Positions 2,135 to 21,519 of a stretch of DNA of 42,062 bases are shown one piece after another. The stretch covers positions 1 through 42,062 of the forward strand of contig CAIURC010000139.1 in assembly GCA_903901425.1 (NCBI GenBank). The letters are read 5' to 3'. The notes under the pieces were generated by a model. The model saw nothing but the letters and a program-made list of their open reading frames with translations, had not been told where the DNA came from and did not search any database. Positions within the stretch are counted from its first letter, which is position 1; every line of letters begins with the position of its first letter. This DNA comes from an uncultured Spartobacteria bacterium (GTDB lineage Bacteria > Verrucomicrobiota > Verrucomicrobiia > Chthoniobacterales > Chthoniobacteraceae). The position numbers were made by a program, and so were the translations under genes.

Positions 2135-5100
2135 ATGACCACCCTCCACCAAATCGGAGGCCGCATCCTGCGTGGCCTGATTTTTCCCATCGCCCCCGTT
2201 GCACTCACACTGGGAGCGCCTGGCGCGCACGCGGTTGAATCTGGCCCCGGCAAGGCTCCTGTCAGTTATTTCAACGAGGTTCGGCCTATTTTCCAGGCCA
2301 ACTGTCAGGGATGTCATCAGCCGGCCAAGGCCAAGGGCGGTTACGTGATGACCGACATGAAGAAAATGTTCGCCGGGGGCGACAAGGAAGGGGTTGCGGT
2401 GGTGCCGGGCGACGTTTCCAAGGGCTCCCTTCTCGAACAGATTCTGCCCGTGGACGGTTCCGCAGAGATGCCCAAGAACAAGCCGCCCCTGACAGAGCCC
2501 CAACTGGCTGTGATCCGGCGCTGGATCGCCGAGGGTGCCAAGGACGACACGCCGGCGGACGCCGTAGCCCATTTTGACGCCGAACATCCGCCCGTTTATC
2601 CGCGCCTGCCCGTGGTTGCCTCCATGGATTTCTCCCCGGACGGCCAGTTGCTCGCCGTGTCCGGATTTCATGAAGTTCTCCTTCACAAGGCCGACGGATC
2701 CGGCATCGCCGGCCGGTTGATTGGGATCTCGCAGCGGATCCAGAACGTGCGCTTTTCTCCGGACGGCAAGTGGTTGCTGGTGGTTGGGGGCGACCCAGGC
2801 CGGATGGGAGAGGTTCAGATTTGGGAGGTAGCCACCCAGAAGTTGAAGAACTCAATTCCCGTTGGCTGGGACACGTTGTACGGAGCAAGCTGGTCGCCCG
2901 ACAGCACGCAGATCGCCTTCGGCTGTGCGGACAACACCGTTCGTGTCATCGAAGTCCAGACCGGGAAACAGCTGCTCCAGATGGGCTCCCACAACGAGTG
3001 GGCATTGGAAACCGTGTTCTCGACGAAGGGTGATCATGTGGTGTCTGTGGCCCGGGACATGACCGTCAAACTGTCCGATGTGCCCGGCCAGCGGTTCATC
3101 GATAACGTCACCTCCATCACCCCAGGCGCGCTCCGCGGCGGCTTGGATTCCGTGGACCGCCACCCGAAACAGGACGTGATTGCCGTGGGCGGCGCCGATG
3201 GCAGCCCTCAGCTCTTCCAGATCTTCCGGACCGCCGCCCGTCGGATTGGCGACAACGCCAACCTCATCAAAAAGTACGACGGCATGCTGGGCCGGGTCAG
3301 CGTTGTCCGGTTTTCAAAAGACGGTCGACATTTGGCCGCTGTCAGCGCGCTGGACGGCGCCGGTGAACTCTCCGTCTTTTCCGTGGGCGAAGATTTTACC
3401 GGGTCCAAACAGATCCAGAATTTGCGGGCGAAACCGGCCAAGGACCGGAACCCGCAGGAGACGTCGGAGCTAGCCGCATTTGAAGATACATTCGGATGGC
3501 GGACGGTTCACATGAAGCTGCCCATGGCGCCCTATGCACTCGCGTTTCATCCCGATGGAAGCCGGGTCGCGGTTTCGGGCAGTGACGGCGCGGTGCGCTT
3601 CGTGGACGTGTCTACTGGAATGGTCAGCCGCGAATTTGCGGCGGCACCGGTGCAGAAAGGCGCCAAGCCGCCTGTGGGCCGGACGCTGGTCCGGCGGACG
3701 GCCGAGCCAGCCGTGGCGGAGGGCGAAGTCGCACCGGAACCTGGGCAGATTCAGGCGCTGGAGGTGAGTCCGGCCAAAATCGACATTGCGCGCAGGAACG
3801 ATGCTGTCCAGGTGCTGGTGACTGCGAAGCTGGTGTCTGGCGAGGTGGCGGACGTGACGCGTCTGGCCAAGCTGGAGCTTGGTGAACCGCTGGCAACCAT
3901 GACGCCGCGTGGCCGGTTGGTGCCGGCCCGGGACGGCGAAACCCGGCTGAAGGTCAGCTACGCAGGACGCACCACCGAGGTCCCGGTCAAGGTGGCGGGC
4001 GCCCAGAAACCCTTCGAAGCCGATTTCGTGAGGGACGTGAATCCCGCCATGACCAAGTTGGGGTGCAACCAGGGCGCGTGCCATGGATCCAAGAACGGGA
4101 AGGGTGGATTCAAGCTGTCGCTGCGCGGCTACGACCCATTGTTTGACGTCCGGGCACTCACCGACGAACTCGCTGGCCGCAGGGTCAGCCTTTCTTCGCC
4201 AGACGACAGTCTGATGTTGCTCAAGGCCATTGCCGAGGTCCCGCATGAGGGCGGGCGCCGTTGCGAGAACGGCGATCCGGCCTACCGCATCCTGCGCCAG
4301 TGGATTGCCGAAGGCGCGAAGCTCAAGGAGACCGCCGCCCGGGTGAAGTCGATCGAGGTCCTGCCGATCAACCCTGTGCTGGGCCAGGTCGGGAGCCGGC
4401 TCCAGATGCGCGTTCTTGCCACCTACACCGACGGTGTTCAGCGCGACGTGACGGCTGACGCGTTCCTAGATTCCGGCAACGTGGACGTGTCCACCGTCGA
4501 CGGCGCCGGCTTGGTCCAGACGCTGCGCCGGGGCGAGGCACCGATCCTTGCCCGGTTCGAGGGAAGTTACGCGGCAACCACCGTGACCGTGATGGGTGAC
4601 CGGAAAGGATTTGAATGGAAGGCGCCTGAAACCTGGGGCCGGATCGACGAACTCGCCGCCTCCAAATGGCAGCGGATGAAGATCCAGCCCTCCGAACTCT
4701 GCACAGACGGCGAGTTCCTGCGCCGGGTGACCTTGGATCTGACCGGGCTTCCACCCGGGCCGGAAGAACTCCGGGCATTCCTGAACGATACCCGGCCAAC
4801 GCGTGAGAAGCGCGAGGCTGCGGTGGATCGTCTGATTGGCACCCAGGAGTTTCTGGACCACTGGACCAACAAATGGAGCGACATGCTTCAGGTGAACGCG
4901 AAGTTCCTTGGACGCGAAGGCGCTGACGCGTTTCGGATGTGGATCCGCGGGCAGCTGGAGAAGAACGTGCCATACGACCAGTTTGTGCGCTCGATCCTGA
5001 CGGCGCAGGGGTCGAACTTTGAGAATCCCGCCGCGAGTTATTGGAAAGTGCTGCGCCAGCCAGCGGAGGCGTTGGAAAACACGACCCACCTGTTCCTTGC

Positions 5101-7234
5101 GACCCGGTTCAACTGCAACAAGTGCCATGACCACCCGTTTGAGCGGTGGACCCAAGACCAGTACTACCAGACCGGTGCGTATTTCGCGCAGTTCTCCCTC
5201 GCCGATGACGCGGCCAACAGCAAGGGCCGCAAACTCGGTGGCACCGCTGTGGAAGGCGCGAAACCGTTGTTCGAAAAGGTCGCTGAGAATCCGGCGGGCA
5301 CCTTTGTCCATGACCGGACCGGTGCGGTGACCGAACCGCAGTTCCCGTACCCGGCCAAGGCCGAGGTCGATCCCAAGAGCCCGCGCCGGATCCAGCTTGC
5401 GGCATGGCTGACTTCTCCGGACAACCGGTATTTCGCCTCCAGCTACGCGAACCGCGCCTGGGGCTACTTGCTGGGACGCGGCCTGATCGAGCCGCTGGAC
5501 GACATCCGTGCCGGAAACCCGGCGAGCAACCCGGAGCTTCTGGAGCATCTGACGAAGCGGTTTGTGGAGGGCGGGTTCAACGTCCGGAGCCTGCTCCGGG
5601 AGATCTGCGTGTCGCGCACCTACCAGCTCTCGATCCAGACCAATAAATGGAACGAGGACGACACCACCAATTACTCGCATGCCGTGGCACGGCGGCTTCC
5701 GGCGGAAACGCTGTTCGATGCGGTTTACAAAGTCACGGGGTCATCCAAGGCAGCGCACCGGGCGACCTCGATGGTCGAGAACGAGGGCGAAATGAGCACC
5801 TTCCTCGCCACCCTCGGACGGCCTCTGCGGGAGAGTGCCTGCGAGTGTGAACGCAGCAGCGAGTTGCGGCTCGGCTCCGTCATGGCGTTGCTGAGCGGTC
5901 CGACTATTTCCAGCGCGATCCAAGATCCCAAGAACGCTCTCGCCACGCTGGTGACCCAGCACCAGGACGACGCGAACCTCGTGAACGAACTCTTCCTCCG
6001 GGTGCTCTCCAGAGACGCCACGGCGCGGGAAATTGAGGCTACCCGCAAACTTCTGGGAACAGTCGATGCCGACCACCAGAAGGTCGCTGCGGCATGGGAG
6101 GCCAAGGAAAAGGAACAGGCCCCGGTCATCGCCCGGATGGAGAAGGAGCGGGAGGCGGCCATTGCGAAGGCGACGGCCGAGCTAACTGGATACGAGACGG
6201 CCACCCAATTCTTCCGGGAGGAACGGGAAAAGGTCCGCAAGGAACGTGAGACTCAAGCCGTGCAGGCTGTGAAGGGATACGAGGAAAGCCTCGCGGAACG
6301 CACGGCCGGATGGCTGGCTTCGCAGAAGCCTGCCGCTGACGCGCCGGTTTGGTTGACGCTGAAGCCGAAGGAGGCCAAGGCCACGCTGCCGCAGACCACC
6401 CTGAAAGTGCAGCCCGACAACTCCATCCTCGCCTCCGGCGGCAACAACCGGACGGATTATGTTGTCACGTTCGATACCGATGCACAGGCGATCACCGGCC
6501 TGCTGCTCGAAGTGCTTCCAGACCCGTCTCTGCCTGAGTTCGGTCCGGGCCGTGCGAAGACTGGAAATTTTGTCCTCAACGGCATCACACTCAGGGCGGG
6601 TGCGAAGGGGAAACCGGAGTCGCCTGTCACGCTGAAGGAGGCGTGGGCCAGTTTCTCCCAGGACAAGTACCCGGTGGCAGCTGCGATTGGAGCTGAGGAA
6701 GATGCGAAGGGCTGGGCACTCTCAGGTGGCCTTGGCAGGCGCCAGTTGGCGGCGTTCAAGCTCGAGCAGCCGATCCCAGGCGGACCCGGAACCTCCCTGC
6801 GTGTCACGCTTTCGCATAAGCAGCCTGAAAACACGATTGGAAGGTTCCGGCTTCATGTCACCACGGCGGCGAACCCGCTCAGTGCCGGGCTTCCCGAAGC
6901 CGTCCACGCGGTTCTGAATCAGGACCCTTCGGCCAGAACGGCCGATGGACTCAAACTGGTCGCCGAACATCTTCGGACTGCAGACGCCGAGTACTGGCGC
7001 TTGAAACGTCTGGAGCATGTCGCGAAACAGCCTCTGACCCCGGATCCCAAACACACCGGACTCCAGCAGACGCTGGCCACCGCAAAGGAACCCATCCGGC
7101 TCGATCCGATACTGGTGCAACTCAGGGAAGACATCGAGGCCAGCAAACGCCAGGTGGCAAACAAGCGCCTGACCGTGGTGCAGGACCTCGCATGGGCTCT
7201 GGTCAACAACCCCGCATTTCTGTTCAACCGTTAA
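2135..7234 (+). CDS. Exported multi-domain PSCyt1-WD40-Ig-PSCyt2 (DUF1549)-PSD1 (DUF1553) protein
   Basis: The ATG at 2135 gives a signal peptide (hydrophobic core [16 protein letters not shown], cleavage after AHA) and a 1699-residue protein. Visible order: planctomycete-type cytochrome domain with CQGCH (C57, C60, H61); WD40-like blades with repeated 'FSPDG' (about 160-495); Ig-like domain (about 540-625); a second cysteine motif CNQGACH (C644, C649, H650); another Ig-like domain (about 738-820); PSCyt2/DUF1549 (about 834-1040) with CNKCH (C994, C997, H998); PSD1/DUF1553 (from about 1083). A Glu/Lys/Arg-rich coiled coil (about 1322-1385) and a beta-rich stretch interrupt PSD1 before its usual terminal 'NNPAFLFNR'. 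These families are abundant in PVC bacteria and usually paired with DUF1501 proteins, as here, 13 bp downstream. The biochemical role of the pair is unproven; periplasmic or surface polymer breakdown or redox functions have been suggested. Confidence 0.9.
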
Positions 7235-10055: not shown

Positions 10056-13000
10056 TCAATCCATTCCAATTGCACCGGATCCACCGGAGTTGCCCGCCGG
10101 AGCTGGCACGGTTTTTTCATCCCCACGGGATGGCTGTGGAAACAGCTCCAGAGATTCTGCCCGGACATGGATCACCCCTTTCTGGATCTGGAGCCGGCCC
10201 TGAACCCGGAGAAAGCTGGAGTGCAAAATCAACAACCGGTGCTCTTCAAAGAGGCGGGGTGTCACGATGATGTTGGCAATGCCGGACTCGTCTTCGAGGC
10301 TGAGAAACGCAAATCCCTTGGCCGTGGACGGCCGTTGCCGGCAAATCAGGCAGCCGGCAATTTCGATGCACGCCCCATGTGTCCCGTGACGCAGGTCTGA
10401 GGCGCGCCAGAGCTCGGGAAACCGGGGCCGCAGCAGCTTCATCGGATGCGGGCCGGTGGACAGGCCAAGTCCCTGGTAATCCGCTTCCAGCCGTTCCCCG
10501 GCCTGCATCGGGGTCAGAGGCGACTCCGGGGCTGGCAATGGATCCGGTGCGCGGCTGGCGGCAAATGCAAACAGATCGGGGTCCGGAGGCCGTTCCACCC
10601 GCCAGAGCGCATCCCGTCTGTGGCTCGAAAACGCGCGGAGCACACCGGTGGACGCCAGAACCCGCCATTCCGCACGGTCCAACGGAACACGCCGCCGCAG
10701 GTCTTCAAGGGACAGAAATGGCCGGGTCCGGCGCTCCTCCAGAAGCCGCCGCACATGGGCCGTGTTCATGTTCCGGACCTGACAAAACCCGAGCTGGAGA
10801 GAGTTCTGGGGCGTTACCGTGCAGTGCCACTCGGAGTTTTGAATGCACGGAGGATGGATCCGGACCCCGTGTCTGCGTGCGTCTTGGAGGAGTGTGGCTG
10901 GGGAATAAAATCCCATGGGCTGGTTGTTGAGCAGGCACGCGTAGAACTCGGGTGTCCGGTGGACTTTGAGCCATGCGCTTGCATACGCCAGAATCGCAAA
11001 GCTGATTGCATGCGATTCCGGGAATCCGTACAGGGCAAAGGAACTCATGGCCTGGACCATCCGCTGGATCACCGCGGGCGCTATCCCCTTCGCCGCCATG
11101 CGTTCCTCCAGTCTGGCCGTCACTCGCGCCATGCGCTCGGGGGACCGGTGAAAACTCAGGGCCCGCCGGAGTTCCTCCGCCTCGCTCGCGGTGAAGTCCG
11201 CCATCACCATGGCGATCCGGAGCAGCTGTTCCTGAAACAGCGGCACCCCAAGCGTCCGCTTCAAAATCGGTTCCAGACGCGGGTCGTCGTAGGTCTCGGG
11301 TTCCTGTCCGGAACGGCGGGCGAGGTAGGGGTGCAGAAGATCCCCCTGGATCGGTCCGGGCCGGATGATCGCCACCTCGATGCAGACATCGTAAAAACAC
11401 CGGGGCTGCATCCGGGGCAGCGTGGCCATCTGGGCCCGGCTTTCGACCTGAAACACCCCCACGGTGTCGGCAGCACAGAGCAGGTCGTAGGTGGCAGGAT
11501 CGTCCTTCGGGATGGTGGCAAGATCCACCGCCCGTCCCCGTTCAGCGCAGAGTGCAACGGCATCCTGCAGCACCGACATCATTCCCAGTCCCAGCAGGTC
11601 CACCTTGATGATCCCCAGCGATTCACAGTCCTCCTTGTCCCACTGCGCCACGCTCCGCCCGGGCATGGATGCGTTCTCCAGCGGCACAACCGAACTCAGG
11701 TTTCCCGTGGAAAGAATCATCCCGCCCGAGTGCTGCCCCAAATGCCGCGGCAACCCCTGCAGCTCCTCGTAGAGCTTCAGAAAAACCGGAAACCGCGGAT
11801 GCTGAAACTGCCGCGCACCCGCCCCCCCGGGACCATCCTGTGCCTGAATCTGCATGAACCGTTCCACCAGATCCGGCGGCAGGCACAGCACCCTGCCCAG
11901 TTCCCGTGCCGCGCTTCGTCCCCGGTAGGTGATCACATTGGCCGTCATGGCGGCTCCCTCCCGACCGTGCCGCCGGTAAATTTCCTGAATCACACGTTCC
12001 CGGCGGGAACCGCTGGGCAGGTCGAGATCGATGTCCGGCCAGCTCCTCCGGCCTTCGCTCAGGAACCGTTCAAAAAGCAGGTTGCACTGCACGGCGTCCA
12101 CGGCGGTGATTCCGAGGCAGTAACACACGGCGCTGTTGGCGGCACTTCCCCGGCCCTGGACCAGAATCCCCTCCGACCGGCAGAAGTTCACAATGTCCCA
12201 GACCATCAGGAAATACCCCTCAAACCCCAGCCGGTGGATCAGGTCCAGTTCATGCGCAAGCTGCCGACGCACCGCCTCGGGCACCTGCGCCCCATAGCGT
12301 GTCCGCGCTCCTTCCAGGGTCACCCGGGTCAGATACGCCTTCTGGTCCGCGCCTCCGGGCGGCGAGTAGTCCGGAAACTGGTAGCCCAGATCCTGCAGGG
12401 TAAACTCCAGGCGTTCCGCGATCTGCCGTGTGTTGGCGATTGCCTCCGGCAAATCCGGGAAAAGCGCGGCCATCTGAACGCCCGTCTTCAGGTGCCGCTG
12501 GCTGTTGGGCGAAAGCCGCGTTCCGGCCTCGTCCAGCGTCTGGTGCGCCCGCAGGCAGGTGAACACGTCTAGGATCCGCCGTCCCGAGGGCCGCGCATAC
12601 AGCACCCCGTTGGTCGCCACCACCGGCACCTCCAGTTCCCGGGCAAGGCCCACCAGTGCCGACTCCTCCCGTTCCTCGCCCCGGAGCCGGTGCCGCTGCA
12701 GTTCCACCCCCAGATGCCCTGATCCAAACATCTCCCGGAGATGCCGGAGCCGGTCCCGGGCGGAGTCCGGGCCGGCCGCGCGCAGTGCGGCACGGAGCGG
12801 GCCGTCAGGGCCGCCGGTCAGCGCCACCAGACCCTCGGTGCTGCCTTCAAGGGCCTGCCATGGAATCCGCGCCTTGCCCTTGGGCGCGGCCAGATGAGAT
12901 CGGGACAGCAGCCGGCACAGATTCCGGTACCCGGTGGAACTGGCCACCAGCACCGGAAGCACACTGTCGTCCTCCATCTCCAGCTCGCAGCCTGTCAGCG

Positions 13001-13181
13001 GCCGGATCCCGTGTTCCGCAGCCGCCCGGTGGAACCGCGGGATTCCATAAACACCCTGCCGGTCGCAGAGCGCCATGGCCTTCAGCCCGCGTTCTGCCCC
13101 CGTGGCTGCCAGCGTTTCCGGCGGAGAGGACGCCCGCAGAAAGCTCAGGGCACTGCTCGCATGCAACTCAACGTACTCCAT
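10056..13181 (-). CDS. dnaE2: Error-prone DNA polymerase DnaE2 (ImuC)
   Basis: 1041 residues, the usual length for DnaE2. The start at 13181 gives 'MEYVELHASSALSFL', matching the N-terminus of the PHP domain, although the usual metal-binding HCHS is changed to HASS, as is common in DnaE2. The polymerase core contains 'RGRGSAANSAVCYCLG' and the catalytic Asp motif PDIDLD (D383, D385, D387). Helix-hairpin-helix and OB-fold regions lie near the C-terminus ('GFAFLSLEDESGIANIIV'). DnaE2 performs damage-induced translesion synthesis together with ImuA and ImuB and is the polymerising subunit of the mutasome. It is the last gene of the minus-strand operon, 8 bp after imuB. The frame is open further upstream, but that extension overlaps imuB and is not DnaE-like. 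Confidence 0.95.
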   Translation of the reverse strand: MEYVELHASSALSFLRASSPPETLAATGAERGLKAMALCDRQGVYGIPRFHRAAAEHGIRPLTGCELEMEDDSVLPVLVASSTGYRNLCRLLSRSHLAAPKGKARIPWQALEGSTEGLVALTGGPDGPLRAALRAAGPDSARDRLRHLREMFGSGHLGVELQRHRLRGEEREESALVGLARELEVPVVATNGVLYARPSGRRILDVFTCLRAHQTLDEAGTRLSPNSQRHLKTGVQMAALFPDLPEAIANTRQIAERLEFTLQDLGYQFPDYSPPGGADQKAYLTRVTLEGARTRYGAQVPEAVRRQLAHELDLIHRLGFEGYFLMVWDIVNFCRSEGILVQGRGSAANSAVCYCLGITAVDAVQCNLLFERFLSEGRRSWPDIDLDLPSGSRRERVIQEIYRRHGREGAAMTANVITYRGRSAARELGRVLCLPPDLVERFMQIQAQDGPGGAGARQFQHPRFPVFLKLYEELQGLPRHLGQHSGGMILSTGNLSSVVPLENASMPGRSVAQWDKEDCESLGIIKVDLLGLGMMSVLQDAVALCAERGRAVDLATIPKDDPATYDLLCAADTVGVFQVESRAQMATLPRMQPRCFYDVCIEVAIIRPGPIQGDLLHPYLARRSGQEPETYDDPRLEPILKRTLGVPLFQEQLLRIAMVMADFTASEAEELRRALSFHRSPERMARVTARLEERMAAKGIAPAVIQRMVQAMSSFALYGFPESHAISFAILAYASAWLKVHRTPEFYACLLNNQPMGFYSPATLLQDARRHGVRIHPPCIQNSEWHCTVTPQNSLQLGFCQVRNMNTAHVRRLLEERRTRPFLSLEDLRRRVPLDRAEWRVLASTGVLRAFSSHRRDALWRVERPPDPDLFAFAASRAPDPLPAPESPLTPMQAGERLEADYQGLGLSTGPHPMKLLRPRFPELWRASDLRHGTHGACIEIAGCLICRQRPSTAKGFAFLSLEDESGIANIIVTPRLFEEHRLLILHSSFLRVQGRLQIQKGVIHVRAESLELFPQPSRGDEKTVPAPAGNSGGSGAIGMD

Positions 13182-13189
13182 GCGCCTCC

Positions 13190-14899
13190 TCAGTCGTAGA
13201 TGCCTTCCAGCAGCCATTCCCCGTTCTCCTCGCAGATCCGGCAGAGCTGCCCGCCCGAAAGCTGCACATCCCATTCCCGGCGGCTCCATGCGCGGTCTGT
13301 CCACCAGTCGCCCGACCCACACCACGGACCGCGCAGCGCCGTCACCAGGCCCGCCGCAGCCGCGCTCCGGAGCTCCACGGGCCGGGCTTTGCCGGGATCC
13401 GCCCGGACCTCTACCGGGACCGGGGGCCGGAACCGGCGCAGCACCATGCCGTGCGGGACAGGTGGCGGGGCGGTGGCATCTGATTCCGGGCGTTCCAGAA
13501 AGCCCCACCCGGCATCGGCGGGATTGTTCCAAGCTGCCACCTGGGCTGCCACTTGGGCTGCCAACTGGGATGCAGGAGCTGGGCGCGGCGGGGGGCCATG
13601 GGTTGAGTCCATGGCCTGCGGCTGGAGGCTGGGGGCAGCCAGTGTGAACTGGTCGGGCCGGTGGGTGGGCGCCAGTACCGGCACCCCCACGCGCCCTGCT
13701 CCGAGCACGGCCTCAAGCCGGGCAAGTGTCTCAAAGAACTGGTTCGGGTCGCGGAGACCCCGGTTGAGCAAATCCAGCTGCTGCCGCGGTGGGCGGCTCG
13801 GGAACACCTCCAGCACCAGGCCCGTGACAGGCCGGTCCGTGCGCACCCCCTCCAGATGCGTGTGCAGCACCCGCAACAGCACGTCCGGATCGCTGGAGGC
13901 CGACGGCAGCGAAAAACGCCGGCCACAGGCGGTTTCGTCTTCCAGCCGCAGCGTCAGTTCCAGAGCGGCCACCGACAGCCACAGGTTTTCCACACGGCGC
14001 ACCAAGCCCAGCAGCATCTGCCTCAGCACAAACAGCAGCGGTTCCAGGGTCTCCATCCGGACATCCAGATCCGCCGTTTCCCGGAAACTTTCCGGGGGAT
14101 GACAGCACTGCAGCGGGCGCCATGCCGTGCCCGCAGCCAGATCCCAGAGTGTGCCGGAACCGCCTCGTTCCAACCAGGCGCTCCGGTCCAATCCCGCAAG
14201 GTCGCCCACCCGCCGCAGGCCCCAGAGCCCGAGCAGCGCCAAGACGCCCGGATCCGCCACGTGTTCGAGGGGCAGGTCTGCAAATGCTTCCGCCGTCTCC
14301 ACATTCCAGATCCGCTTGCCATTCAGGCCATGGACAGGATGGACGCTATGGACGCTATGGACGCTATGGACGCTATGGACGCTATGGACGCTATGTGCGG
14401 CCAGCAGCGCGATTCCTGGGTTCGGTCCGAGGCCGGCCACGGCTGCCACGCCCAGTCCATCCAGGTGCGGGAGCACCCTTTCGAGCATCCGCAACGCGCC
14501 GGTTCTGTCCGGGCCAGAACACAGCACCGTGCACGTCCCCGGTGCCGTTTCCTCCACCCAGGGCGATAGCAGGAACGCCGCCTCCCGAAGCACCTCCGAT
14601 GCCCGGGCTTCGGCAGCAATTGACCGCTCCACCCAGCGTAGCCCCGGACAGCGCACCGTCGCTTCCGGAAGGCTCATCCCGGGCCGCACCCCGGCGGCAG
14701 CAGCAAGGGCGTTGCACTCCAAAAGGCGGGGGGGGCGGCCCTCGGTCAGCGCCGCTGGGGTGCCGGCAGTTCCGGCAGTTCTGCCCGCAGCGCTCCCGGC
14801 TGGCGCACAAATCCACTGGGCCTGCCGCAGCGCCGCCTGGAGCCCGAACCACGGCACCCACAGCACCCCGTAATACCCCGTTGTGCCCGGCCCGTTCAT
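13190..14899 (-). CDS. imuB: Y-family polymerase-like mutasome protein ImuB
   Basis: 569 residues. The start at 14899 overlaps the imuA stop by 4 bp (ATGA), and the sequence begins with the ImuB-like 'YYGVLWVPWFGLQAAL'. Catalytic DinB polymerases carry an Asp in this strand; here it is WVPWF, so the protein is predicted to be catalytically inactive, as is known for ImuB, and to act as the adaptor bridging ImuA, DnaE2 and the beta clamp. A possible clamp-binding segment is 'DQFTLAAPS' in the C-terminal half, but the fit to a QLxLF-type motif is weak. At residues about 169-189, between the palm and the helix-hairpin-helix region, there is a run of seven His-Ser/Pro-Val triplets encoded by a 9-bp tandem repeat; this is not a usual ImuB feature. 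Confidence 0.93.
   Translation of the reverse strand: MNGPGTTGYYGVLWVPWFGLQAALRQAQWICAPAGSAAGRTAGTAGTPAALTEGRPPRLLECNALAAAAGVRPGMSLPEATVRCPGLRWVERSIAAEARASEVLREAAFLLSPWVEETAPGTCTVLCSGPDRTGALRMLERVLPHLDGLGVAAVAGLGPNPGIALLAAHSVHSVHSVHSVHSVHSVHPVHGLNGKRIWNVETAEAFADLPLEHVADPGVLALLGLWGLRRVGDLAGLDRSAWLERGGSGTLWDLAAGTAWRPLQCCHPPESFRETADLDVRMETLEPLLFVLRQMLLGLVRRVENLWLSVAALELTLRLEDETACGRRFSLPSASSDPDVLLRVLHTHLEGVRTDRPVTGLVLEVFPSRPPRQQLDLLNRGLRDPNQFFETLARLEAVLGAGRVGVPVLAPTHRPDQFTLAAPSLQPQAMDSTHGPPPRPAPASQLAAQVAAQVAAWNNPADAGWGFLERPESDATAPPPVPHGMVLRRFRPPVPVEVRADPGKARPVELRSAAAAGLVTALRGPWCGSGDWWTDRAWSRREWDVQLSGGQLCRICEENGEWLLEGIYD
14332..14394 (-). repeat. 9-bp tandem repeat inside imuB
   Basis: On the plus strand, six perfect copies of GGACGCTAT (14341-14394) are preceded by one diverged copy (GGACAGGAT, 14332-14340). 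Read on the coding strand the unit is CATAGCGTC, giving His-Ser-Val. The unit is a multiple of three, so slippage changes protein length without breaking the frame. Confidence 0.95.
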
Positions 14900-15678
14900 G
14901 CGCTGGCTGCGCGGTGTCCCCCGCGCAGAAACTCCAGTTGAAACCCCGCCACCAACGCGCTCCGCGGCCGGTCCAGCGCCTCCAGAGTCCACCGCGCAGG
15001 CACGATCCGGAGCCGGTTCCGTGCGCTGGCCACCGCAGGCACCCGGGTGAACACCACCGCCGCCACCGCCGCAGGCTCCAGACCGAGCCGGATCCGGTGC
15101 CAGAGTGCCGGAGACACGTTTCGGAGCCCGGCCTCGCCCCGGAGATCCACCACCAGCAGCGGCAGATTGCCGTCCTTGGCCAGCAGCTCGGTGGCCTGCA
15201 GCGCTTCCAGCCCCCCCCCGCACCGGACCCACAACAGCCTCCGCAACACCCCCGCTGGCAGTCCCCCGGGATCCAGCGCGTCATTGCCATCCACCAGTGC
15301 CGTCCAGCCCACCCCGGCACTCCGCACCAGCAGCTCCACCAGCAACGCCGACCCTCCCGCCCCCGCACAGGTCAGTTCCACCAGGCTGCCCCCGGGCAGC
15401 CCGCCCCCCAGCGCCGCGTCCAACACCGGCACACCCGTCCGAAACCGCCGCGCCCCCCACAGCCCAGGGCCAGTTTCACGGCCGGTTCCTAGACCGGTTG
15501 ATGGACCGGTTGATGGACCGGTTGATGGGTTCCCCGCGGACGCTGCTGTTCCAAGAACATTTTCAGGCGAAGATCCAGAATGCGTTCCAAGGCCAGTTCC
15601 AAGGCCAGTTCCAAGACACGCCGCGCCATGCCGGTGTTCCAGCAGTTCGCGCAGTGCCACAATCTTCGGATGAGCCAT
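14896..15678 (-). CDS. imuA: Mutasome protein ImuA (RecA-like)
   Basis: 260 residues, first gene of the imuA-imuB-dnaE2 operon. The region after residue about 78 ('FRTGVPVLDAALGGGLPGGSLVEL') matches the RecA/SulA-like core of ImuA, with the equivalent of the P-loop region degenerate ('CAGAGGSALL'), as expected for ImuA. ImuA binds ImuB and is required for damage-induced mutagenesis. Between the N-terminal helix (MAHPKIVALRELLEHR) and the core lies a low-complexity linker made of GLGT and PSTG repeats, encoded by two 12-bp tandem repeats. The start codon lies 29 bp from a LexA-type palindrome, so SOS induction is expected. Confidence 0.88.
   Translation of the reverse strand: MAHPKIVALRELLEHRHGAACLGTGLGTGLGTHSGSSPENVLGTAASAGNPSTGPSTGPSTGLGTGRETGPGLWGARRFRTGVPVLDAALGGGLPGGSLVELTCAGAGGSALLVELLVRSAGVGWTALVDGNDALDPGGLPAGVLRRLLWVRCGGGLEALQATELLAKDGNLPLLVVDLRGEAGLRNVSPALWHRIRLGLEPAAVAAVVFTRVPAVASARNRLRIVPARWTLEALDRPRSALVAGFQLEFLRGGHRAASA
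15492..15527 (-). repeat. 12-bp tandem repeat (PSTG) in imuA
   Basis: Three perfect copies of GACCGGTTGATG on the plus strand, with a diverged copy directly to the left (15480-15491). The coding strand reads CCATCAACCGGT, giving Pro-Ser-Thr-Gly. It lies in the linker in front of the RecA-like core. Confidence 0.95.
15585..15615 (-). repeat. 12-bp tandem repeat (GLGT) in imuA
   Basis: Two full copies and one partial copy of TTCCAAGGCCAG on the plus strand. The coding strand gives three Gly-Leu-Gly-Thr units near residues 21-32 of ImuA. The unit differs from that of the second imuA repeat, so the two arrays arose independently. Confidence 0.93.
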
Positions 15679-15706
15679 GAGATCACCCTAGCCTGAAACA
15701 GAGAAG

Positions 15707-15720
15707 TGTTCAAATGAACA
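15707..15720. promoter_or_regulatory. LexA (SOS) operator upstream of imuA
   Basis: TGTTC-AAAT-GAACA: two perfect inverted 5-bp arms around a 4-bp spacer, ending 29 bp before the imuA start codon. The motif TGTTC-N4-GAACA is the LexA-binding site reported for Verrucomicrobia, and imuA-imuB-dnaE2 is a classic SOS operon. The site lies between imuA and the divergent WYL regulator gene (132 bp from its start), so it could affect both. Confidence 0.8.
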
Positions 15721-15851
15721 TTCTTTTTGGCGCTCGAAATCAGGGTTTCCTCCACGCCGGTTTTCTCCCGCCCGCAGCAGGGGATCTCCCAGCGGTTGTC
15801 CCACCCTCTTTTCCCTTGTAAACGGATCCGCCTACAACGCACAGTCCAGGA

Positions 15852-16856
15852 ATGGTCCGCCCCAAGCTTTCCCAGCGCATCCCCAAGACCCCCTCGCGCT
15901 CCCAGATGGCCCGGATGCTCCGGCTCCACAGCCGGCTCGCTTCCAACAATTTCCCCAACTGCCAGAAGCTTTCCTCGGAACTGGAGGTGTCCCCCAAGAC
16001 CATCCAGCGCGACATCGATTTCATGCGGGACCAGCTCGGGATGCCGATCCGGTATGATGAACTCAAGTTCGGCTTTTATTACACCCAGCCCGTCACCAGT
16101 TTCCCAACCATCAAGGTTTCGGAGGGCGAGATCGTCGCGCTCCTCGTCGCCCAGAAGGCGCTTGAACAGTACCGCGGCACCCCGTTCGAGGAACCCCTCC
16201 GGACCGCTTTCAAAAAAATCACCGACGGGCTTCACGACAAGATCCAGTTCAACTGGGCCGACATCGGGGCCACCATCTCGTTCCGCGGCATCGGCAACAG
16301 CAGTGCCGATCTCGAACTCTTCGAATCGCTCAGCCGCGCCGTTCTCGACCAGCACGAGGTTGAGTTCGAGTACCGCAAACTGGAAAGCCGGCGCCACGAG
16401 GTCCGCAGGATCCAGCCCTACCACCTCGCCTGTATCGAGAACCAGTGGTACCTGTTCGGACTCGACCTTGTCCGCCGTCAGCTCCGCACCTTTGCCCTCC
16501 CCCGGATGCGCGCCCTGCGCAACACCCGGAACAAGTTCCAGCGGCCCGCCGATTTCTCGATCCGTGATCATCTGAGCGACAGTTTCGGTGTGTTCAAAGG
16601 CAAGGCCCGGCACAAGGTCCGGATCCGGTTCGATGGCATCGCGGCCCGGCTCGTTTCGGAACGGCAGTGGCATCCCTCCCAGAAAATCCGGCGTCTGCCC
16701 GGGGACGATCTGGAGCTGAGCCTGGTCCTGGGCAGCCTCGAGGAGGTCGAACGCTGGGTCCTGAGCTGGGGCAGACACGCCGAGGTCCTCGAACCCGCCC
16801 AACTCGCGGACCGGATCCGGGATACCGGGGCCGTGCTGGCCAGCCGCCGCCGTTAG
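15852..16856 (+). CDS. WYL-domain transcriptional regulator (DeoR/YafY-like)
   Basis: 334 residues. The N-terminal winged helix-turn-helix is visible around residues 18-75 ('NCQKLSSELEVSPKTIQRDIDFMRDQLGMPI', given here only as a pointer to that segment's key helix VSPKTIQRDIDFM), and a WYL domain around 150-240 contains 'HLACIENQWYLFGLDL' and 'RTFALPRMRAL'. A WCX-like C-terminal domain follows. WYL domains sense ligands, in some cases single-stranded nucleic acid, and some family members (PafBC) control DNA-damage responses. The gene is divergent from the imuA operon, with 173 bp between the start codons including the LexA box. Control of the mutasome is therefore a reasonable but untested idea. 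It starts at an ATG without a strong Shine-Dalgarno site. Confidence 0.88.
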   Translation: MVRPKLSQRIPKTPSRSQMARMLRLHSRLASNNFPNCQKLSSELEVSPKTIQRDIDFMRDQLGMPIRYDELKFGFYYTQPVTSFPTIKVSEGEIVALLVAQKALEQYRGTPFEEPLRTAFKKITDGLHDKIQFNWADIGATISFRGIGNSSADLELFESLSRAVLDQHEVEFEYRKLESRRHEVRRIQPYHLACIENQWYLFGLDLVRRQLRTFALPRMRALRNTRNKFQRPADFSIRDHLSDSFGVFKGKARHKVRIRFDGIAARLVSERQWHPSQKIRRLPGDDLELSLVLGSLEEVERWVLSWGRHAEVLEPAQLADRIRDTGAVLASRRR

Positions 16857-16960
16857 GGCGGTGCACGGGTGGGCCGGGGGGGCACGTCGCACAACCGGAG
16901 GGCGTGCGGGATTCCATGGGGTGCGTGTTTTCCCGGCGGGGACACATCATCCCGGGGTAC

Positions 16961-17026
16961 GCGTTGTCCCGGGGGCGCGTTATCCGGGGGGCGCGTTATC
17001 CGGGGGCGCGGCGCGTTGTCCCGGGG
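16961..17026. repeat. GC-rich 16-18 bp direct repeats in intergenic DNA
   Basis: Four imperfect copies of GCGTTRTCC followed by G/C runs: 16961-16976, 16977-16992, 16993-17010 and 17011-17026. A more diverged CCCGGGG-rich stretch lies just before. The array sits in the 319-bp gap between the WYL gene and the next secreted protein (16857-17175), which otherwise shows no gene. The CCGG-rich units can also pair with each other. No coding frame is convincing. Confidence 0.8.
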
Positions 17027-17175
17027 TAGCCGCAACCCCGGGCTCAGATCCGCATGGCCGATGGCCAAGGCCAGATGACCGGCCCAGGAGCGTTGGGTCG
17101 GAAAGGGTAAAAGAGGCGACATAATTTGCCTAAACGATGCATTTTCTGGTAGGAGCCCTCCGGTTTCTCACCCCC

Positions 17176-19023
17176 ATGCATCATTTCCCCCTCCATCTTC
17201 TCTCCTGGGCATCTGTATTTCTGTTGTCCGCGGTCCCCCTTTCCGCGGTCGAACCGGCACTCCCTGACGTTCCCTCGGCTTTTGAACCCCGCCTTCTGCC
17301 GGGCCAGAAGGGGGTCGTGTTTGCCATGTACAGCCAGCCGGGCACCCGCGAAAAACTCGACCAGCTCATCGCTTCCATGCGCCAGAACTCCCTCGGAAAT
17401 GGCTTTGATCCGGGACCGGCTGTTTACCCGCACAACCAAACGCTGTTTGAAGCCATTGCCGATGCCGGGTGGCCCTCCTTTTCCGTCCCGGGACCGGAAA
17501 TGCAAATCCGGGGCGGACGGAGTGTGCTCGGAGCCGAACAGGCCGCGCTACTCCGCCCGTTTGAGAAGGCCGGCGTCTTTTACGGAATCCAGCTCGGAGA
17601 GTGGGACTACTATTTCCACCGGATGTCCACGGCGAATGCCGAATTCTGGTGGCGCAGCATTTACAAAGAGCAATTTGAACAGTTCCAGCACCTCATGAAG
17701 CCCAAGGGGCTTTTCGGCTATGACCGGATGCCACTCAACCGGCAGGAATGTTACGACACACTTCGGGAATATTTCACCAGCCGCACCCGGGATTTGCTGG
17801 ACCGCGTGATCAGTGTCACCGGCCATTCTCATTATGAGGCCTATGCCGGGGAATGGGGCGCCCGATGCATCGGCCTGGAGCTCGGTGAAAACATCGCGTT
17901 CACCCAGTCGAAACTCGCCTTTGCCCGGGGGGCCGCCCGGCAATCCCAGAAGCCGTGGTCGGTCCAGGTGAGCCCGTGGTTTGCGGGCGCGTGCACCACC
18001 CGGGGCCCGCTCCGGCAGGAGGGCACGGATCCGAGGGATTGGCGGGGTCTGGAGGCCGGCCATTCCCTCAGCTTCTACGAACGGATGTGGCTGCACGCAT
18101 GGTTTGTGGGAGCCGCCATGGTGACGCCCGAAAACAGCCTCGGGATCTTCTTCGAATCCGACAACGACTACAGCCGGCTCACCGAACACGGCCGCAAAGC
18201 GGGCGAGGTGTTCCGGTTCATGCAGTCCCACCACCGCGGTGCCGCTTACACCCCGGTGGCCGTCGTTCTCGACCGGCTGGCCGGGTACAACGCCTACATG
18301 GGAAAACCCTGGGGCATCTTCGAGCCCACTCCGGGCGACCGTCAGATCCAGGATCTCTTCGAACACCAGCTCTATCCGGGCAGCGACCACATCTGGAAGA
18401 AACCCGACCCGGAAAACCCGGAGGCAACCTTCCTCCCCGCCACGCCTTATGGGGAGATATTCGACGTCCAGCTCACCAGCGCCTCCGAGGACATGCTGGG
18501 GTGTTATCCGGCCCTTCTCCTGGCCGGAGACATCACCTTTGACGAAAGTCTCGTCGCGAAACTCGAATCCTCCCTGAAACGCGGCCACCGTGTCTTGTAC
18601 ACTGCCGCGCACCGTCAGGCCCTGGGAGCTGAGACCGTTGCCCGGCTGGCCCAAAACCCAGGATTTGAATGCCTGGAACACCCGGTTCAGCCCGCTACCG
18701 GCCGGCCCGCCCTGATCTCACACGAACGCCTTCAGGAACTGCTCCGCCAGACGCTGCCCGTCACGGTTTCCGGCGCCCCGATCCAGTGGGCCCTCAACCG
18801 GAATGCCACAGGCTGGGTCCTGGAGCTCTCAAATCCCGCGGGTGTCCGGAAAAAGCCGGGCGCACCGGCGGTGATCGACCCGTTGGCGGTTGCCCGCGTA
18901 AAAGTCCAGACCCGGTTTCCGTGTGAGAGCGCCACGGAATGGCGGTCCGGGAAAACCCATCCGATGGCCGAGGAAATCCTCGTCGGCCCGGGTCAGACGG
19001 TCTTTCTCGAAATGGCCCAGTGA
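17176..19023 (+). CDS. Secreted protein of unknown function, possibly glycosidase-like
   Basis: The start at 17176 gives a signal peptide (HHFPLHLLSWASVFLLSAVPLSA, cut near AVEP) and 615 residues; an in-frame ATG at 17137 would put 13 residues ahead of it. I do not recognise the family with certainty. The middle part, with 'AYAGEWGARCIGLELGENI', 'ARGAARQSQKPWSVQVSPW' and 'FFESDNDYSRLTEHGRKAGEVFRF', has the feel of a TIM-barrel glycoside hydrolase (GH42-like proteins common in Verrucomicrobia and Lentisphaerae). It is followed by a segment resembling a trimerisation/Rossmann-like domain ('CYPALLLAGDITFDESLVAKLESSLKRG' region) and a beta-rich C-terminus. Catalytic acids cannot be assigned by eye. 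It is a single-gene unit convergent with the restriction genes. Confidence 0.7.
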   Translation: MHHFPLHLLSWASVFLLSAVPLSAVEPALPDVPSAFEPRLLPGQKGVVFAMYSQPGTREKLDQLIASMRQNSLGNGFDPGPAVYPHNQTLFEAIADAGWPSFSVPGPEMQIRGGRSVLGAEQAALLRPFEKAGVFYGIQLGEWDYYFHRMSTANAEFWWRSIYKEQFEQFQHLMKPKGLFGYDRMPLNRQECYDTLREYFTSRTRDLLDRVISVTGHSHYEAYAGEWGARCIGLELGENIAFTQSKLAFARGAARQSQKPWSVQVSPWFAGACTTRGPLRQEGTDPRDWRGLEAGHSLSFYERMWLHAWFVGAAMVTPENSLGIFFESDNDYSRLTEHGRKAGEVFRFMQSHHRGAAYTPVAVVLDRLAGYNAYMGKPWGIFEPTPGDRQIQDLFEHQLYPGSDHIWKKPDPENPEATFLPATPYGEIFDVQLTSASEDMLGCYPALLLAGDITFDESLVAKLESSLKRGHRVLYTAAHRQALGAETVARLAQNPGFECLEHPVQPATGRPALISHERLQELLRQTLPVTVSGAPIQWALNRNATGWVLELSNPAGVRKKPGAPAVIDPLAVARVKVQTRFPCESATEWRSGKTHPMAEEILVGPGQTVFLEMAQ

Positions 19024-19219: not shown

Positions 19220-20416
19220 TTAGGCAGGGTTCTTGCACCGAACATACGATATGAAATCTGCTAGACTCCTAATAATTCCAAGCTGTTCGGTTCTGTAGGT
19301 TGCATGGAGCACCTTTGGAATAACGAGTTGTACCCGTTTTTCCATCATCTCTGATGTCTGTGAAACCGAAATTCCAGGCTCCAAAGTAAAAAGATGTTTT
19401 TGAGGAATTCGATCAGCTTCCGCAAGGATCTGTCGCCAACGATCTTTGGCGCTCGACTTGACTCCAAGCATCACAAGAAGGGACTGATCGAAGATTGGAT
19501 TATGGTACTCGCGTTCCCCGGGGAAGATGAAATCTGGCGAGTTGTTTCGCTCGGTTCTGGCTTGTGGAGTGAACCGGAGGCGGTGGCGTTTGAAAATCTC
19601 TTCAAGGTGATTCTGGAGAGCGTGTCCCATTCGCGACTTTCTTCTATTAAGAACAGAAAGAGAAAACCTAACAAAATCCTCAGTGTTATCAAAGCCCTCC
19701 CTCAACCGTTTCAAAACAATAACATTCTCCAGTGCCTTGAATAATTCTTCTTCCCTCGAGATCCAAGCTGTTAAGGTTTCATCGGGATCTGAATCCCCCG
19801 TTTCGACATGGGATCTTGCAAAAGCAGACATGGCTTTAGTGCTCGGGAACTCTCCGCCGAATGCGCCTAGAACAGTGTCCTCGTCAGAAACGACCACTGG
19901 CAAATCGTCTGCAAACCCAATTTCCTCAAGAACCTTCCGCTCGAGAAAACCTAGATCCTTCCTTACTAGGGATTCATGAGAAAGCGTTCGAAAACTGGGG
20001 CCGGTTGCCTCAAGCTGGAAGAGTTGCCTCACCGCCCGTTCCCATCCCGATTCTTTCTCAAGTAGAAGAGCGTCGAAAGCGCCCTTCCTGTCGCAGACAA
20101 TTACGAGAAGATCTCCCTCACGCACCCTCTCTAAAAATTTCCCTGAATAATAGAATCTCCATTCGGACCGACCTGTCCGCACACTTCCCTTCGCGCGCGC
20201 GTCATAGAAAGTGAAGCTGTCGGAATAATGTTCAGGATCTCTATCGTCAGAAAAGTAATGCCAGCGGATCTTGCCTTTTGTGGTCTGGCTTGTCCCAAAG
20301 AGTTCTTTTAGCGCTGAAACGCCATTGATTTCGTGTTGATTAGAACCATTCTGAGGAAGATCAACCGCTGCCATTTTCTTGTGGGCAACGCTTGAAAATA
20401 TGGAAGCAAGGTTCAT
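19220..20416 (-). CDS. EcoRII-family type II restriction endonuclease
   Basis: 398 residues. The C-terminal third matches the EcoRII catalytic domain: '[18 protein letters not shown]', then '[10 protein letters not shown]' (about residue 294), '[19 protein letters not shown]' (about 315-333), '[11 protein letters not shown]' and '[12 protein letters not shown]'. In this family PDFIFPG and VKSSAKDRW belong to the PD-(D/E)XK-type active site. The N-terminal part probably serves as the effector/DNA-binding domain, as in EcoRII. The gene overlaps the methyltransferase stop by 4 bp (ATGA), so modification is translated first. The expected target is CCWGG or the related CCNGG, inferred from the paired methyltransferase. 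The DNA here is visibly AT-richer than its flanks, suggesting horizontal transfer. Confidence 0.88.
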
Positions 20417-21519
20417 CGCTTAGAATTTTTCCTTTTGGCCCTCTGCCTCCGGGGTGATGTGCCGGATTTTTTACTAAACGCCGATTCCTCCAACACTTCT
20501 TGGAGGATCAGATTCGGGCGATGATCAGCAGGCAAACTCAAGGAGGCGATTACAGAACGAGCGATTGCTGAGACTACGGGAACCACTACTGAATTTCCGA
20601 ACTGGCGGTACGCTTGTGTGTCAGATACAGGAATCCGGAATGTATCCGGATATCCCATCAGTCGGGCGCATTCCCGAGGCGTCAAGCGCCGCGGGATTTC
20701 TCCCGGACCTTGAGCAACAAGAATCTCAGAGCCATCCTTGTAGTAGCGTGCACTCAGAGTCCGGGCAGTGTCGACGCCTGTAACCAAGCCATAGCCAAAG
20801 CCATTGCCAGCCGCTTTGTGTTTCCGAGCGTATTCCTGAAGGTACTGCCATAACTTAACAGTCAATGTGTATTTAGGGTCCACCTTCTCCTCAAGAATGG
20901 AAGAGAGAGTCGGCCCCTTTAAGGGAAAATCGGGAAACTCAAAGTATCTCGGCTCTCTAAATCCGACTAGAAATATGCGTTCCCGGTGCTGAGGCACCAC
21001 CTTCGATGCATCAATGATTTTGTGATAGACCCGGTAGCCGAGAGTTTCTGAAAGGGTGTGCATAATAATCTCGAAGGTCCTTCCCTTGTCATGGCTTTTT
21101 AGATTTTTTACGTTCTCAAGAACAAACGCTTCCGGACGATGGAATTCGAGAATATTGGCTATCTTGAAAAACAAGTTGCCTTGTTTTTCATCTTCGAACC
21201 CATGCTTTCTGCCCAAGCTAACTTTCTTGGATACTCCGGCTATGCTGAACGGTTGGCATGGAAAGCCTCCGCAAAGAATTTCAAAGGGCGGAATATTCGC
21301 CACCTCAACCTCGTGGATGTCTCCATGCGGTTCTTCCCCGTGGTTGGCTTTGTAGGTGATCCGGCTGTGCCTGTCCCAATCACTTGAAAAGACGCAATTA
21401 GCGCCAACACCTTCAAACCCAAGCCGGAATCCTCCGATGCCACAAAATAAATCAATAAAGTTTAACTGTCGTAAATGGGCTTTTTTTGCGACAGACAAGG
21501 ATGTGGTCTCTTTTGGCAT
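20413..21519 (-). CDS. dcm: DNA (cytosine-5) methyltransferase, Dcm/M.EcoRII-like
   Basis: 368 residues with the ordered motifs of C5 methyltransferases: SAM-binding FCGIGG (residues 25-30), catalytic GGFPCQPFS with Cys88, 'LENVKNL', '[11 protein letters not shown]', and '[10 protein letters not shown]' near the end. The target-recognition region contains '[13 protein letters not shown]' and '[16 protein letters not shown]', strikingly like E. coli Dcm, M.EcoRII and M.SsoII. Methylation of the inner C of CCWGG (or CCNGG) is therefore predicted. It protects the host from the overlapping EcoRII-like nuclease downstream. A Vsr repair nuclease lies 321 bp upstream on the same strand, consistent with repair of T:G mismatches formed from deaminated 5-methylcytosine. 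Confidence 0.95.

Follow-up and report, generated by a model that had tools for sequence, protein, structure and literature searches.

The ImuA-ImuB-DnaE2 mutasome carries out error-prone synthesis under SOS control and is needed for damage-induced mutagenesis. It is encoded by genes in this order behind a LexA-type box, and joins the polymerase DnaE2 to ImuB, an inactive homologue of the Y family in which the clamp motif, RecA-NT and ImuB-C follow one another. In published models, the most reduced ImuBs retain the thumb, the little finger and ImuB-C, the palm being dispensable, and the thumb and ImuB-C contact DnaE2 (PMC12926913). The modules of ImuB are separable as genes, as in the split systems composed of an inactive PolY and a standalone ImuB-C (PMC6511836, PMC12926913). 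A gene governing the mutation rate that contains short tandem repeats is known from Salmonella: in mutL, a 6-bp loss inactivates mismatch repair, and slipped-strand mispairing has been proposed for the change in copy number (PMC2955026). More generally, bacterial intragenic minisatellites (VNTRs) consist of perfect in-frame units with lineage-specific copy number and encode low-complexity peptides.

In this work we analysed a window of 42,062 nucleotides, contig 139 of a 5.1-Mb genome in 224 contigs, from a Chthoniobacteraceae-like bacterium of the Verrucomicrobiota. Its mutasome operon shares gene order, inactive Y-family homologue, DnaE2, LexA-type box and the domain order of ImuB with the systems described, and differs from them in that linkers of ImuA and ImuB are lengthened by tandem arrays. 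As in mutL, the repeats lie inside mutation-rate genes and their copy number would change by slippage, but the units studied here occupy permissive linkers in a complex of an error-prone polymerase, where a functional switch is not to be expected. They resemble VNTRs in the three properties given above, but many units across this genome carry one and the same hexamer, ATGGAC, the remainder of the unit being array-specific. We consider it likely that the arrays arose by near-neutral slippage expansion of short arrays in permissive linkers, as part of a process acting on the whole genome. A search of the open-licence literature for tandem repeats or minisatellites in Verrucomicrobia, Chthoniobacter or Akkermansia, or in imuA/imuB, found no relevant paper.

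The mutasome operon and its tandem arrays

The three genes of the operon are all on the minus strand, overlapping or closely spaced, with intact frames.

10056..13181, minus strand: dnaE2, error-prone C-family polymerase (NF004225; Pfam PHP, DNA_pol3_alpha, finger, HHH_6)
13190..14899, minus strand: imuB, inactive Y-family homologue (Pfam IMS; identity to congener ImuBs)
14896..15678, minus strand: imuA, RecA-like (weak matches to NF033429 and RecA; operon position; N-terminal helix of congeners)
15707..15720, no strand assigned: LexA-type SOS box TGTTCAAATGAACA, 28 bp upstream of imuA

DnaE2 was identified strongly (NF004225, 1174 bits), and ImuB by a match to Pfam IMS (29.9 bits) and by 43-47% identity to the ImuBs of three congeners (47% for G003, 43% for G001 and G002). 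The ATG of imuB at 14899 overlaps the stop of imuA. The match of ImuA to its model was weak and under the cut-off (NF033429, 27 bits); judged from gene order and the alignment with the congeners, its identity is clear. By inspection, the GKT Walker A motif is absent from ImuA. When the ImuB alignment was inspected against the catalytic motifs of DinB, VPWFGLQ and SPWVEET were found at the catalytic positions, which are devoid of the catalytic acidic residues. The motif TGTTC-N4-GAACA, presumably the LexA motif of the phylum, occurs seven times in the genome versus once for the reversed control, and another of these copies is located at the beginning of a lexA gene; these predicted sites, before imuA and at lexA, point to LexA control. 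The locus is an intact mutasome operon of the SOS type, as far as its function can be predicted from sequence.

Four tandem arrays were counted in imuA and imuB at a TRF score of at least 60.

14332..14395, minus strand: imuB array 1, seven 9-bp units, palm-thumb linker, about residues 169-189
13533..13573, minus strand: imuB array 2 (AAQV), linker from the RecA-NT motif to ImuB-C, about residues 443-456
15492..15528, minus strand: imuA array 1 (PSTG), linker from the N-terminal helix to the RecA core
15584..15615, minus strand: imuA array 2 (GLGT), linker from the N-terminal helix to the RecA core

imuB array 1 is made of six units CATAGCGTC and one unit CATCCTGTC, encoding HSV six times and HPV once; TRF reports it as 6.3 perfect copies of 9 bp (14339-14395), and the proline-variant unit extends it to 14332. 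On the plus strand its unit reads ATGGACGCT. The other three arrays have 12-bp units, present in 3.4 imperfect copies (86%) in imuB array 2, where the in-frame peptide is AAQVAAQVAA, in 3.1 copies (100%) in imuA array 1, and in 2.7 copies (100%) in imuA array 2. The plus-strand unit of the PSTG array, ATGGACCGGTTG, contains the ATGGAC core, which is absent from the GLGT unit. The first-pass annotation had described the HSV/HPV, PSTG and GLGT arrays as three in-frame micro/minisatellites. All three were recovered by TRF at their places and in frame, the AAQV array had been missed, and units of 9 and 12 bp make them minisatellites rather than microsatellites. Four arrays in the 2.5 kb of imuA and imuB compare with a mean of 0.015 after dinucleotide shuffling and 0.02 after codon shuffling, and three or more arrays were never reached in 1000 shuffles of either kind. 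Within imuB array 1 and both imuA arrays the units do not differ at synonymous positions, and the expansions are therefore recent.

Since the coding score falls in this part of imuA, we considered whether its start is misannotated, so that the arrays would be upstream of the gene, and rejected this. We accepted the start at 15678, with both imuA arrays inside the protein, because the N-terminal helix that follows it is conserved in the three congeners.

Rfam gave no match within 12500-17500. Elsewhere in the window we observed a type II restriction-modification pair on the minus strand (19220-21519), composed of an EcoRII-C endonuclease (19220-20416, minus) and a C5 cytosine methylase (20413-21519, minus), and a 1699-aa protein (2135-7234, plus strand) that combines cytochrome, WD40 propeller and PSCyt2/PSD1 domains and belongs to the planctomycete-type family of large cytochromes. 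An 18-bp duplication (GGAGCGAACTACACGGCG) is present at 48-84 and again at 288-324, 240 bp apart, within a 607-aa frame having a Listeria-Bacteroides repeat domain.

Linker positions and comparison with relatives

The proposal that the arrays lie in linkers held for those of the first-pass annotation: the imuA arrays separate the conserved N-terminal helix from the RecA-like core, and imuB array 1 follows the last palm helix and precedes the thumb. In 32 of 58 full ImuBs of the class the palm-thumb linker has 22-23 residues; in another 10 it has 25-30 and in the remaining 16 it has 32-82. The long linkers consist for the most part of non-repetitive sequence, and clean 9-bp arrays at this place were found in two of the 58 only, those of the window genome and of G003. 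The linker has been enlarged independently in other ImuBs; a further Opitutaceae ImuB (L019) likewise has a long insert there. The linker between RecA-NT and ImuB-C has 76 residues in the window, versus 29-49 in the other 57 ImuBs and 34 in ImuB of M. smegmatis, for which the borders of these domains have been defined (PMC11791113). An AlphaFold model of ImuB from a three-row alignment had a mean pLDDT of 46 and was too poor to use. Changes in length at the array-bearing linkers would be expected to be tolerated, because the arrays are in linkers, the palm-thumb linker varies or is even the point of a split, and the palm is dispensable in models.

The split was observed in another family of the same order (f8), in which imuB forms two separate genes cut at the palm-thumb junction, in seven genomes of four genera. 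The palm half adjoins imuA and lexA; the half with thumb, little finger and ImuB-C is about 10-15 kb away when both share a contig and is on a different contig in other genomes. Known splits free ImuB-C, whereas this one separates palm from thumb. The loci are L210 (2608-3192, minus, with 3144-3851, minus, and 16773-17747, plus), L211 and L212/L213.

The repeats are lineage-specific, a point that the first-pass annotation had proposed to check. G001 and G002 have array-free ImuA and ImuB linkers of minimal length; G003 has arrays at the same two linkers as the window genome, with different units, VDR/VDG (9 bp, 11 copies, core GTCGAT) in the palm-thumb linker of ImuB and PVPP (12 bp, 7.7 copies) in the linker of ImuA. 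Neither of the two observations that the annotation had named as counter-evidence was made: repeat number is not constant in the relatives, and the repeats are not a fixed domain of ImuB. One genome per species was compared, and the copy-number variation seen is variation between species. Because the ImuB of G003 is the closest of the three, one ancestral array region with turnover would be as possible as two origins, and an array-bearing ancestor shared with G003 may leave a single event.

Arrays across the genome and the ATGGAC-core family

We sampled 792 kb of the same genome, partly made of contigs picked for holding arrays, and found 50 arrays, 20 with a period of 9 and 12 with a period of 12; 31 of the 50 are outside predicted genes. 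The density of about 63 arrays per Mb applies to this enriched sample; of the 650 windows of 2.5 kb in its unbiased part, 32 contained any array. The imuA-imuB region, with four arrays per 2.5 kb, is at the top of 1329 sampled windows, and clusters of three arrays are present at other places in the genome. The operon is extreme in array density, not unique; its four-array peak and the same linkers in G003 leave room for some preference of the arrays for the mutasome. Close by, an array of 3.9 copies of 16 bp, a further instance of this genome-wide occurrence, lies between a WYL-regulator gene and the next gene (16949..17010, no strand assigned). In-frame arrays were also found in genes matching a uracil-DNA glycosylase (APV), a rhodanese (GPN, AMG), a PLP-dependent decarboxylase (GAET) and a phosphoribosyltransferase (GPH), those of the glycosylase and the rhodanese being absent from congeners that have orthologues. 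The glycosylase-superfamily gene (G000:C79; L066, 11516-11568) carries its 9-bp APV array in the N-terminal linker. Uracil-DNA glycosylase has been reported to be under SOS control in Verrucomicrobia (PMC8565304), and a second repair gene is therefore affected by arrays.

Many arrays belong to what we define here as the ATGGAC-core family, in which the hexamer recurs at constant short spacing in at least three to four units. imuB array 1 (9 bp) is a member, as is the PSTG array of imuA (12 bp), which has only about three units; the GLGT and AAQV arrays are outside the family. The four-unit pattern ATGGACNNN matched 119 times in the window genome, 98 times in G002, 61 times in G003 and never in G001; these matches overlap, and separate arrays are several times fewer. 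The same pattern built on the reversed hexamer gave no match in the window genome or the congeners. NNN varies between ATGGACNNN arrays and is often uniform within one, and the core also recurs at 10 bp (L055, L068) and 15 bp (L241), besides the 12 bp of the PSTG array. Across the phylum, ATGGACNNN arrays are distributed patchily, in 20 of 387 genomes and 11 of 198 genera, versus one genome for the reversed hexamer. In other families they are mostly between genes, sometimes with mixed NNN and close inverted partners.

Close inverted ATGGACNNN pairs, separated by roughly 10-40 bp, were observed in several families of the phylum (L170, 11053-11128; L171, 1284-1368; L123, 7857-7956; L125, 308-478; L178, 10234-10354). 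In G140 and G317, of one family, the arrays are within dispersed intergenic elements with conserved flanks, for example GGGACACTG and GCCAGTCAGTCCCC on the two sides and AGCTGCT ahead of the array (L163, 9932-10036 and 12222-12254; L164, 9385-9426; L165-L168). No conserved flanks were found around the arrays of the window genome.

Outside arrays ATGGAC is only 1.11 times as frequent as expected, and an explanation of the DNA-uptake type was rejected on this ground. Viral contigs had no special enrichment, holding 38 ATGGAC stretches and at least 120 of the reversed hexamer; they therefore give no evidence of spread by phages, and the enrichment belongs to the bacterial phylum. Plain slippage has no reason to prefer one hexamer, and the family is unexplained; it may reflect a sequence-specific factor or descent from an old dispersed element. 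It is a tentative and rather doubtful idea that the imuB array is a copy of phylum-wide dispersed minisatellites in which an invariant ATGGAC recurs every 9 bp (also 10, 12 or 15 bp), often in close inverted pairs and between genes. These would be spread or maintained by a trans-acting factor specific for the hexamer, such as a binding protein, a nuclease or a transposase, that would also seed linker-length change in genes such as imuA and imuB.

Origin and consequences of the arrays

The arrays of the operon could have been brought in by a mobile or copied ATGGAC-core element, inserted in imuB and imuA and retained in frame, instead of growing from resident codons. Such an insertion would account for the phylum-wide core in the imuB array, and it has models in the elements with conserved flanks in G140 and G317 and in the close inverted pairs of other families. 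We regard it as unlikely, as the arrays of the window genome are without conserved flanks, each has its own homogeneous NNN, as local expansion gives, and G003 has a different unit with a GTCGAT core at the same site.

The specific link to mutability made by the first-pass annotation found no support. It would make the arrays contingency-type repeats in which slippage alters the linker length of ImuA and ImuB and adjusts induced mutability, a role suggested by four in-frame, lineage-specific arrays in the linkers of one mutasome operon, by their recurrence in G003 at the same two linkers, by the array in the uracil-DNA glycosylase gene and by the 6-bp switch of mutL as a precedent (PMC2955026). 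Translesion slippage by the mutasome polymerase itself, here DnaE2, was suggested in the same annotation as a possible source of change in the arrays. In contingency loci the repeats are concentrated in switched genes, whereas here they are genome-wide, most of the sampled ones lying outside predicted genes and others in unrelated metabolic genes. In addition, 56 of the 58 ImuBs have no clean 9-bp array between palm and thumb, units that are multiples of three give graded changes in length, unlike the on/off switch of mutL, and the affected palm part is dispensable in reduced ImuBs (PMC12926913). The linkers are permissive throughout the class and nothing connects unit number with function, and we judge adaptive tuning to be improbable. 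Selection on the proteins for low-complexity domain spacers (His-Ser-Val, Pro-Ser-Thr-Gly, Gly-Leu-Gly-Thr), to which long linkers at the same sites in several other lineages, including L019, might point, is very improbable, as synonymous positions do not vary between units and congeners have wholly different peptides (HSV versus VDR/VDG).

Slippage expansion in permissive linkers would proceed as follows. Units of 9, 10, 12 or 15 bp would multiply throughout the genome by replication slippage or unequal exchange, in a process that in this genus seems to favour units with a fixed ATGGAC hexamer. The arrays in the linkers from the N-terminal helix to the RecA core of ImuA, from palm to thumb in ImuB and from RecA-NT to ImuB-C would be local products of this process. 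Within imuA and imuB they would persist because each unit is a multiple of three nucleotides long and length change is tolerated at these sites. Mutasome activity is probably affected little or not at all.

For the mutasome, this suggests that the linkers of its accessory proteins ImuA and ImuB accept large changes in length, in line with models that treat the palm of ImuB as spare. A role in evolvability should be claimed for repeats in mutation genes only after they have been weighed against the genome background. The ATGGAC family is the more interesting lead, and the fixed hexamer in otherwise unrelated minisatellites of the Verrucomicrobiota is directly testable.
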